From an uncultured Prevotella sp. (GTDB lineage: Bacteria > Bacteroidota > Bacteroidia > Bacteroidales > Bacteroidaceae), in NCBI GenBank assembly GCA_905233245.1, contig CAJODK010000014.1, positions 1 through 64,000 of the forward strand: 64,000 nt of DNA, read 5' to 3'. The notes below the pieces were generated by a model, which was not told the DNA's origin, did not search any database, and saw only the letters and a list, made by a program, of their open reading frames with translations. Each line of letters starts with the position of its first letter. Position 1 is the stretch's first letter. Of this stretch, positions 4,412-7,926 are shown piece after piece. The translations under genes and the position numbers were made by a program.

Positions 4412-4416
4412 AGAAA

Positions 4417-4446
4417 AGTCCTCTCCACTTTCTGGTGGGGAGGACT
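4417..4446. terminator. Bidirectional intrinsic terminator between rlmD and small ORFs
   Basis: AGTCCTCTCCAC...GTGGGGAGGACT hairpin flanked by A- and T-rich tracts. Confidence 0.7.
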
Positions 4447-4476: not shown

Positions 4477-4545
4477 TTATGCCTCAGCATAAAACTCTGT
4501 GATTGGAGTATGTGAGGCCATCCAAATCAACACTTTCTTAATCAT
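4477..4545 (-). CDS. 22-aa small protein MIKKVLIWMASHTPITEFYAEA (tandem paralogue 2)
   Basis: Below ORF-track cutoff; purine-rich AAAGGA upstream; 15/22 identical to the adjacent ORF at 4628-4696 with synonymous third-position differences. Confidence 0.7.
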   Translation of the reverse strand: MIKKVLIWMASHTPITEFYAEA

Positions 4546-4627
4546 AATACAATCCTTTCCTTTAAAAATAACTAACCAATATTCTAACTAACTATACTAA
4601 CTTCTATTCTAATAATGTTGCGCATCA

Positions 4628-4696
4628 TTATGCCTCAACATAGAATTCCGTGATTGGGGTATTCTGTACCATCCAAACTAATAAATTCTTAATCAT
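4628..4696 (-). CDS. 22-aa small protein MIKNLLVWMVQNTPITEFYVEA (tandem paralogue 1)
   Basis: As above; AAAGGACAACGTT-ATG; promoter box TACCTTTGC about 40 nt upstream. Confidence 0.7.
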   Translation of the reverse strand: MIKNLLVWMVQNTPITEFYVEA

Positions 4697-4728
4697 AACG
4701 TTGTCCTTTCTTTTTTTAATTTGACGGT

Positions 4729-4759
4729 GCAAAGGTACGTCGATTTTCGTTATCGTGCA
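4729..4759 (-). promoter_or_regulatory. Bacteroidetes-type promoter for the tandem small ORFs
   Basis: Reverse strand: TTGCACGATAACGAAAATCGACGTACCTTTGC (TTG ... TAnnTTTG, ~20 nt spacer). Confidence 0.65.
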
Positions 4760-4839
4760 AGAAAAAATAAAATTGTGTGCGCACACAATGGCTTTTTATT
4801 GATTTAGGTCAGCTATCTTCGCTTTTGTTAAGAATAAAA

Positions 4840-4860
4840 AAGCAGGCTAACTGCCTGCTT
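4840..4860 (-). terminator. Terminator after tRNA-Gly
   Basis: AAGCAGGCAGTTAGCCTGCTTTTTT on reverse strand. Confidence 0.7.
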
Positions 4861-4881
4861 ATACATTTGAGCGTTGAGTGG

Positions 4882-4953
4882 AGCGGTAAACGGGATTCGA
4901 ACCCGCGACTTTCAGCTTGGGAAGCTGACGCTCTACCACTGAGTTATTACCGC
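4882..4953 (-). tRNA. tRNA-Gly(CCC)
   Basis: Cloverleaf GCGGTAA...TCAGC-TTCCCAA-GCTGA...GGTTCGAATCC...TTACCGC-T with encoded CCA. Confidence 0.95.
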
Positions 4954-4958
4954 AAAAA

Positions 4959-4982
4959 AGCCCCACCTGACTTGTGGGGCTT
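4959..4982 (-). terminator. Hairpin between tRNA-Thr and tRNA-Gly
   Basis: AAGCCCCACAAGTCAGGTGGGGCTTTTTT on reverse strand. Confidence 0.7.
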
Positions 4983-4985
4983 AGG

Positions 4986-5058
<73 letters not shown>

Positions 5059-5116
5059 ACTCTTGTTAGTTTACGTGTGCAAAGGTACAAAAACTTTTCG
5101 ACACACGCAAACTTTT

Positions 5117-6196
5117 TTATGCTTTCTTGATGTATTCAACTATCCAAGCACCTACTTCCTTGGTACCATACTTAGCACCGCCCTCTACCTGAATTTCTGG
5201 TGTGCGGACATTCTGATCCAGTGAAGCATCAACAGCCTTACGGATAAGAGCGCCCTCTTCCTTGAGGTCAAAATACTCATAGAGCATAGCGACAGAGAGA
5301 ATCTGTGCGAGTGGGTTGGCTATATTGAGGCCTTTACCCTGTGGCCATGAACCGTGGATAGGTTCGAAGACTGGGGTAGAAGAACCTGTAGAAGCTGATG
5401 GGAGCAGCCCCATAGAACCCGTGATGCAAGAACCCTCGTCGGTCAGTATGTCGCCGAAGGTATTCTCCGTCACCATGACGTCAAAGAATGTTGGTTCCTG
5501 AATCATACGCATTGCAGCATTGTCAACATACATAAAGTCTGTCGTAACGTCAGGATACTCTGGTGCCATCTCCTGTGCCACCTTACGCCACAGGCGAGAT
5601 GATGCGAGCACGTTAGCCTTATCTACAACTGTGAGGTGCTTTCTGCGCTGACGAGCATACTGGTATGCAACCTTCAGAATACGCTCTACCTCTGGACGAG
5701 AGTAGTAGTTAGTGTCGAGTGCATCTTCCACTCCTTCTGCATTAACTGAAGGCTCTTGCTTCTTACCGAAGTACATACCACCGGTAAGTTCACGAATGCA
5801 GATAAAGTCAGCACTCTTAACAATCTCATCCTTCAGAGGAGACTTGTGAACAAGGCAGTCGAAGGTTGTAACAGGACGGATATTGGCAAAGAGACCGAGC
5901 TTCTTACGCATAGCAAGGAGTCCCTGCTCAGGACGTACCTTAGCAGATGGGTTGTTGTCAAACTTAGGGTCACCAACAGAAGCGAAGAGCACTGCATCAG
6001 CCTCCTCACATGTCTTGAAGGTCTCCTTTGGGAAAGGGTCACCCACCTCATCGATGGCGTGAGCACCGCAAAGTGCTTCCTTGTAACTAACCTCGTGGCC
6101 AAACTTCTCTGCTACAGCAGACATAACAGCCACACCCTGCTCCATAATCTCTGGTCCGATGCCGTCACCAGCCAGAACTGCAATCTTTAGTTTCAT
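5117..6196 (-). CDS. leuB: 3-isopropylmalate dehydrogenase
   Basis: [21 protein letters not shown]..., [42 protein letters not shown]. Confidence 0.95.
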
Positions 6197-6510: not shown

Positions 6511-7926
6511 CTAGAACTGGAAGAAGTTCTTAGCGTTGTTGTAGCAGATATCTTCAATCATCTGATATACACGCTGCTTCTCATAGCCCTCGAATGGGAT
6601 GAGACCTGCCTCGATGTCGTTACCAACGAGATTGCAGAGAGTACGACGGAAGTACTCGTGACGTGGATAAGAGAGGAATGAACGAGAGTCGGTCAGCATA
6701 CCTACGAAACGAGACAGCAGGCCAAGAACTGAGAGAGCATTCATCTGCTTCTCCATACCGTCCTTCTGATCGAGGAACCACCAACCTGAACCGAACTGTA
6801 TCTTACCAGCAACACTTCCGTCCTGGAAGTTACCCAGCATGGTAGCAATAACCTCGTTAGCAGATGGGTTAAGACAGTAGAGGATAGTCTTAGCGAGCTT
6901 GCCCTCAGAGTTGAGTTCGTCGAGGAAGTGGCTCATAGCCTTAGCTGTGGTGAACTCGCCGATAGAGTCGAAGCCTGTGTCAGGACCGAGCTTAGCGAAC
7001 ATCTTAGAGTTGTTGTTACGGATAGCACCATAGTGGTACTGCTGAGTCCAGCCTGAAGCGTAGTCCATCTTGCCCTGCTCCTTCATGTAAGCATGCTTAT
7101 ACTTACGCTGCTCTTCAACGGTGAGAGCATTGCCAGCGAGAGCCTTCTTCATGATAGCATCAACCTCAGCGTCTGTGTATGGTTCGTCGTAGAACTCCTC
7201 GATACCGTGGTCAGAGAGCTTACAACCCATAGACTCGAAGAAGTCATGACGCTTCTGCAGAGCCTCATTGAGCTCAGCGAAGCCAGTGATGTCAACACCT
7301 GACACCTCAGAGAGTTTCTTGATATAAGCACACCATGTAGCAGCCTCAATGTTCATACCTGCATCAGGACGCCATGTTGGCAGCATGCGTGTCTTTGCCG
7401 TTGGGTCTTCTTTCACCACCTTGTGCCACTCCAGAGAGTCAGCAGGGTCATCGGTAGTGCAGACAACCTCTACGTTGTAGTGCTCCATCATACCACGAGG
7501 ACAGAAGCGATCCTCGTTCTTAATCATATCATTACACTTGTCGTAGATTTCCTTAGCGGTCTCAGGGTTCAGCAACTTATCGATACCGAAGGCTGTCTTC
7601 AGTTCCAGATGAGTCCAGTGATAGAGAGGGTTACGGAAGGTGTAAGGCACTGTCTCAGCCCACTTCTCAAACTTCTCCCAGTCTGTAGTATCCTTACCAG
7701 TGCAATACTTCTCATCGATACCGTTGGAACGCATAGCACGCCACTTGTAGTGGTCGCCCATGAGCCAAATCTGTGCGATAGAGTCAAACTTCTTATTCTC
7801 TGCTACCATCTGAGGGATGAGGTGACAGTGATAGTCGATGATAGGCATCTTAGCCGCATGGTTGTGGTAAAGATCCTTCGCGGTTTCGGTTTCCAGCAGG
7901 AAATCCTTGTCATTAAATTTCTTCAT
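6511..7926 (-). CDS. uxaC: Glucuronate (uronate) isomerase
   Basis: MPIIDYHCHLIPQMVAENKKF..., GWWFLDQKDGMEKQMNALSVLGLLSRFVGMLTDSRSFLSYPRHEYFRR. Confidence 0.95.
   Translation of the reverse strand: MKKFNDKDFLLETETAKDLYHNHAAKMPIIDYHCHLIPQMVAENKKFDSIAQIWLMGDHYKWRAMRSNGIDEKYCTGKDTTDWEKFEKWAETVPYTFRNPLYHWTHLELKTAFGIDKLLNPETAKEIYDKCNDMIKNEDRFCPRGMMEHYNVEVVCTTDDPADSLEWHKVVKEDPTAKTRMLPTWRPDAGMNIEAATWCAYIKKLSEVSGVDITGFAELNEALQKRHDFFESMGCKLSDHGIEEFYDEPYTDAEVDAIMKKALAGNALTVEEQRKYKHAYMKEQGKMDYASGWTQQYHYGAIRNNNSKMFAKLGPDTGFDSIGEFTTAKAMSHFLDELNSEGKLAKTILYCLNPSANEVIATMLGNFQDGSVAGKIQFGSGWWFLDQKDGMEKQMNALSVLGLLSRFVGMLTDSRSFLSYPRHEYFRRTLCNLVGNDIEAGLIPFEGYEKQRVYQMIEDICYNNAKNFFQF

Follow-up and report, generated by a model that had tools for sequence, protein, structure and literature searches.

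Tandem 22-residue small-protein genes of Prevotella and the composite promoter in front of them

Can two open reading frames of only 22 codons, lying in tandem and unannotated on the reverse strand of a 64,000-nucleotide stretch of an uncultured Prevotella genome (the window), be genes, and, if so, what governs them and what might they do? We regard it as nearly certain that both frames, smORF1 and smORF2, are real genes. By their sequences, the 22-mers appear to form a small-protein family that is new, narrow in its range and overlooked by gene finders. Whether they make up an operon of two genes whose 22-aa products are small regulatory proteins is an evenly balanced question. The features to which the argument refers are as follows.

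4416–4446, reverse strand: intrinsic terminator hairpin, then a T-rich tail (about -17 kcal/mol; kept in five pair-bearing loci)
4477–4545, reverse strand: smORF2, MIKKVLIWMASHTPITEFYAEA, 22 aa and a stop (orthologues; pN/pS 0.13)
4553–4560, reverse strand: Shine-Dalgarno sequence GGAAAGGA of smORF2 (duplex with the 16S tail -10.1 kcal/mol; kept in orthologues)
4571–4600, reverse strand: UUAG-rich spacer between smORF1 and smORF2 (TTAGTTAG retained in orthologues; enriched relative to shuffles)
4628–4696, reverse strand: smORF1, MIKNLLVWMVQNTPITEFYVEA, 22 aa and a stop (orthologues; pN/pS 0.18)
4704–4711, reverse strand: Shine-Dalgarno sequence AGAAAGGA of smORF1 (duplex with the 16S tail -10.0 kcal/mol; kept in orthologues)
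4729–4737, reverse strand: -7 promoter element TACCTTTGC (position invariant across seven loci)
4756–4761, reverse strand: -33 region CTTGCA (sequence and seven-locus alignment)
4773–4788, no strand assigned: CG-centred palindrome TTGTGTGCGCACACAA, likely an operator of LacI-type shape (conserved in seven loci; found genus-wide with the -7 element)
4799–4812, no strand assigned: CRP/FNR-like box CTGACCTAAATCAA (one mismatch to TTGAY-N4-RTCAA)

The tandem pair and its relatives

The two products are identical at 15 of 22 residues, and at five of the identical residues the codons differ synonymously. These figures, along with the placement of the 22-mers at 4696–4628 and 4545–4477, were given in an earlier note on this DNA and were recovered when the sequence was re-read, as were the purine tracts that it placed ahead of both ATGs (AGAAAGGA and GGAAAGGA), the TTG-N20-TACCTTTGC promoter upstream of the pair (4760–4729) and the terminator 3' of it (the hairpin at 4446–4416, about -17 kcal/mol). 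That note had also proposed selection at the protein level, which the comparison of orthologues bears out. Specifically, pN/pS pooled over five genomes is 0.18 for smORF1 and 0.13 for smORF2, ratios that are estimates, given small counts and related genomes, and 13 of the 20 variable columns fall at third codon positions, while the UTRs are mostly unalignable between species. This pattern of substitution indicates that both frames are under purifying amino-acid selection.

The pair lies downstream of leuB, tRNA-Thr(CGT) and tRNA-Gly(CCC), and is followed by a convergent gene for an RlmD-like 23S rRNA methyltransferase and by PPDK (protein gene names were read from the sequences). Four other Prevotella genomes (five with the window) keep the tandem pair at the same spot, all with the gene order tRNA-Thr, tRNA-Gly, smORF1, smORF2, convergent rlmD-like gene. 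The tRNA-Thr/tRNA-Gly pair has a promoter-like site of its own, TTG-N-TACCTTTG, at 5110–5080 of the window (reverse strand), apart from the smORF promoter.

The earlier note had proposed a search for homologues, and relatives were found both by exact motif in GTDB species and by profile within the genus. An exact degenerate search for TPITEFY.EA across 85,488 GTDB (r220) species returned the motif as a 22-aa gene in only four other Prevotella or Prevotellaceae MAGs, each with two copies in unchanged order and place; those MAGs whose titles state a source come from yak reticulum or roe deer rumen. One of the pairs spans two pieces of a single contig (L037/L034) and is complete in L170. An HMM profile search of 300 genus genomes detected pairs in G000, G008, G134 and G181 (E-values per genome 3e-18 to 8e-17), plus one divergent 24-aa single copy, MIKKVLVWMVYHTPVVEPSYYARA, in G170; a sister of this copy (in G360) and a fifth pair (in G373) were found via the promoter search. 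The single 24-aa copies of G170 and G360 lie in a neighbourhood that differs from that of the pair-bearing genomes. Across the pairs, smORF1 always begins MIKN and smORF2 always MIKK, so the duplication is older than the split of these species. On these searches, the 22-mers appear confined to a small Prevotella clade, whose known size is a lower bound, because genomes G299–G398 lay outside the protein-profile search.

No Pfam or NCBIfam model matches the 22-mers up to E = 10, neither the family sample nor the viral contigs contain convincing relatives of them, and Rfam returned no match. Other apparent relatives, for example on a Tenericutes contig (L038) and in G066, were dismissed because they match only by chance, in frames that are longer or different.

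A composite promoter in the genus

Alignment of the seven loci revealed three conserved blocks (the box, the palindrome and the -33/-7 elements), with constant spacing between them and a highly variable 5' UTR length. In the window, the box ends 61 bp and the palindrome 36 bp before the -7 element; both of these upstream sites had been overlooked in the earlier note. The palindrome is perfect in the window and carries one change in G170 and in G360, and the box has one mismatch to TTGAY-N4-RTCAA in the window and in G360. Since the single copies of G170 and G360 sit in another neighbourhood behind the identical promoter type, promoter and gene travel together. The view of the locus as an unannotated tandem family of paralogous small proteins, with its own promoter and terminator, is supported.

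The same arrangement extends well beyond the 22-mers. The palindrome occurs at seven places in the window's own genome with two or fewer mismatches (the reversed pattern at none), and the palindrome together with the -7 element occurs in 199 of 399 genus genomes (the reversed control pattern in 0). About 70 of these loci were examined, 63 of them non-duplicate, and a perfect TTGAY-N4-RTCAA box, which was outside the search pattern of palindrome plus -7, stands 60–62 bp before the -7 element in 60 of the 63. A composite promoter shared across Prevotella is, on this evidence, highly probable. The loci fall into two classes by the distance from the palindrome's end to the -7 element: 11–13 bp in class a and 36–37 bp in class b, to which the window belongs. 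Class a products are mostly 25–34-aa proteins, many of them TM-like (14 of 18 loci with an ORF of 40 aa or fewer), or an ORF-less RNA with repeated TTTAGGTTAG. The class b product is a probable secreted protein of about 120 aa in 28 of 41 loci, and otherwise sometimes a protein of about 30 aa (of MKKLINKWLKSEAYTEYCNNMAKLYNYRAAN type) or the 22/24-mers. Two tandem small ORFs stand behind the composite promoter in G045 and G296 also. The ~120-aa protein was not detected in the seven genomes with 22/24-mers (incomplete assemblies, 71–91%), apart from weak matches in G170.

Several of these products merit description in their own right. The ~120-aa probable secreted protein behind most class b promoters (P0001, L204:287-649, and 30 relatives) ends in a C-terminal NTT.NNRGL motif, and Pfam and NCBIfam gave no confident match for it. 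A family of 30–34-aa proteins of MKKLINKWLKSEAYTEYCNNMAKLYNYRAAN type occurs behind both classes (L171, L177, L178, L185, L143, L151, L157 and L163); homology of the 22-mers to this family (MKKLINKWLKSEAYTEYC...) is unsupported by comparison of the profiles, which are very short. TM-like proteins of 25–32 aa stand behind class a or intermediate promoters (L141, L146, L153, L158, L162, L164, L166 and L136), several of them between a UPF0104-like gene and ksgA, and two with tandem pairs. The ORF-less RNA gene (L097:1580-1900, in G000 C35, and L119, L120 and L121; also L148 and L167) has lptB as its neighbour in four clade genomes and combines this promoter type with repeated AAAGATTGTTTAGGTTAGTAG segments and a terminator; the loci searched against Rfam gave no match, and we consider it a candidate sRNA family.

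Strong Shine-Dalgarno sequences

The second shared property of these loci is translational. GAAAGG within 22 nt of the ATG was found in 46 of 59 regulon loci, whereas of 292 long ORFs taken from the fetched loci only 1 has it, and the median pairing energy with the 16S tail is -9.2 in the regulon against -1.8 in the background. Both comparisons carry a caveat: selection of the regulon ORFs relied in part on an SD-like filter or on best energy, and the background starts are those of the longest ORFs. Even when other in-frame ATGs are allowed, only 9% of the background reaches -7 kcal/mol or below. The UCU by which the 16S tail was extended is general knowledge. The core to which it was added, ACCUCCUU, is that of the literature (PMC3155529). 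In G170 and G360 the Shine-Dalgarno register differs (AAAGGAG) and the pairing is retained, and the distance from the -7 element is variable, so it is the ATG that the motif follows.

The window pair, with both the box/palindrome spacing and the strong Shine-Dalgarno sequences of this group, has good support as one of its members. The composite-promoter, Shine-Dalgarno-led small-protein regulon appears to be broader than the 22-mers and apparently undescribed; our search of open-access literature text found no paper describing one. Annotation overlooks the members of what seems to be a genus-wide regulon, and some of the shortest genes of rumen Bacteroidales prove findable, and trustworthy, through promoter and ribosome-site signatures instead of length.

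Such strong Shine-Dalgarno sequences are unexpected, given that Prevotella bryantii showed no functional Shine-Dalgarno interaction (PMC3155529) and that Bacteroidia ribosomes conceal the anti-Shine-Dalgarno (PMC9976891). The rpsU gene of Flavobacteriales is likewise an exceptional strong Shine-Dalgarno case in a phylum normally without them, translated in a Shine-Dalgarno-dependent manner by otherwise SD-blind ribosomes (PMC9976891), although there a single ribosomal gene is involved, with pairing below -13 kcal/mol, whereas here the pairing, at about -8 to -10, is spread over many small-protein genes. One could imagine a translational regulon of co-regulated, strong-SD small-protein mRNAs in Prevotella, in which the 22-mers and others would be synthesized chiefly at times when the anti-Shine-Dalgarno tail is accessible on some of the ribosomes (for example, those without bS21 or bS18), atop CRP/FNR- and LacI-type control; we hold this to be improbable. 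If the sites do work, they would offer a test case, beyond ribosomal-protein genes, for why Bacteroidia retain a mostly unused anti-Shine-Dalgarno tail.

Possible roles and regulators

What the 22-mers do is the least certain step. We tentatively propose, as one possibility with rather less than even prospects, that they bind and tune a partner protein, such as a metabolic enzyme or a membrane protein. SgrS is a sugar-stress dual-function RNA, and SgrR is not a LacI-type regulator. The pair is like SgrT/SgrS in placing a small protein on an RNA of regulatory size, with control by a sugar-linked transcription factor suspected here; it is unlike SgrS in that the suspected control is LacI-type and in that a known base-pairing target is not among its features. 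The analogy behind the partner-binding proposal, by description, is with AzuC and VcdP, small proteins that bind GlpD and citrate synthase, respectively, and are encoded by CRP-controlled dual-function RNAs of E. coli and Vibrio (PMC8672173). Those loci also combine very short proteins (VcdP has 29 aa), short transcripts and a CRP-family site, and in the window the CRP/FNR-like box and a short transcript are predicted from sequence; however, CRP represses the AzuC and VcdP genes (PMC8672173), whereas here the control would be of activator type and the genes are a tandem pair. The membrane association or signalling role suggested in the earlier note is unproven: the hydrophobicity of the N-half is mild, a protein of this length has no room for an ordinary TM helix and a tail, the helical hydrophobic moment is not above that of shuffles (the N-half shows no significant amphipathicity) and a signal peptide is not apparent.

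Alternatively, the RNA could be the main agent, as a dual-function or base-pairing sRNA whose UUAG-rich single strands are bound by an RRM protein (RbpB-like), with the peptides secondary. Relative to shuffles, TTAG is indeed repeated more often in the spacer and the 3' part; at a sister locus, this promoter drives the ORF-less RNA with TTTAGGTTAG repeats; and the RRM protein RbpB binds RNA globally in Bacteroides (PMC11697453) and is reported, as quoted in PMC12119571, to bind GUAGGAUA. Yet wobble positions vary and the UTRs diverge while the protein is kept, Rfam gave no match and RRM binding to the UUAG motif is something that we infer, so we judge this reading unlikely. A type I toxin pair (Ibs/Ldr-like) under antisense RNA is disfavoured and far less likely: Ibs and Ldr are likewise tiny tandem paralogues, and the N-half of the 22-mers is partly hydrophobic, but a simple motif search of the opposite strand, in the window and its orthologues, turned up no promoter-like site, there is no TM helix, the polar TPITEFY.EA end is conserved and the promoter looks to be of activator type. 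We give equally little credence to an exported, sensed, pheromone-like peptide, for which short length and tandem copies would be suitable, as no signal peptide and no adjoining receptor or exporter is apparent and the neighbours are tRNAs and an rRNA methyltransferase in all pair-bearing genomes. Attenuator leader peptides or chance ORFs, also disfavoured, are scarcely credible, since the next gene is convergent and so leaves nothing downstream for this short, terminated transcript to attenuate, and chance is excluded by pN/pS and exact length conservation.

Returning to the partner-binding proposal, its conditions of expression would depend on the two upstream sites. A CRP/FNR-family activator may occupy the box, at its fixed distance, and a LacI-type regulator, perhaps the KdgR-like protein whose gene adjoins kdgK-eda, may recognize the CG-centred palindrome; these identities are plausible, though we would put them at somewhat less than an even chance. 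Under such control, the peptides would be made in a particular carbon or redox state. The clade genomes encode CRP-like proteins; G000 has two by the cNMP-binding model, while the HTH_Crp_2 model found no CRP-like gene there. In FNR, the recognition helix carries E..SR. The CRP-like protein encoded next to lepA in G000 has MTPETLSRVR for its recognition helix, whose FNR-type E..SR would be fitting for the TTGA half-sites. At L240, a LacI-type gene (4481–5554) and a CRP-like gene (7165–7761) are located. The BT4338 (Cur/Crp) motif of Bacteroides, TATGTT-N-TAN-AACATA (PMC6989115, PMC3878776), was compared and does not match the TTGAY box.

Exactly one LacI-domain gene, adjoining kdgK-eda, is present in each of G000, G008, G134 and G181; it is near-universal in the genus by phylogenetic profile, so its presence is non-discriminating and its link to the palindrome is conjectural. 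The lacI-kdgK promoter region contains related, imperfect palindromes (2–5 mismatches, five genomes). A repressor would fit two pectate-lyase-like loci of G000, where the palindrome overlies the -33 region or the 5' UTR. The KdgR uronate regulon of Bacteroides (PMC3878776) likewise has a LacI-family gene beside kdgK-eda, and the CG-centred palindromes here also occur at pectate-lyase-like genes of the window's own genome; unlike in that regulon, the palindrome is found at uronate-unrelated genes too, and a KdgR-like protein is a candidate binder. In four genomes the palindrome lies in the promoter region of a lytic-transglycosylase-like gene (L094, in G000 C6, L122, L128 and L242:77-905), and in four a CG-centred palindrome lies upstream of a MiaB/MtaB-like methylthiotransferase gene (L123, L124, L126 and L131).
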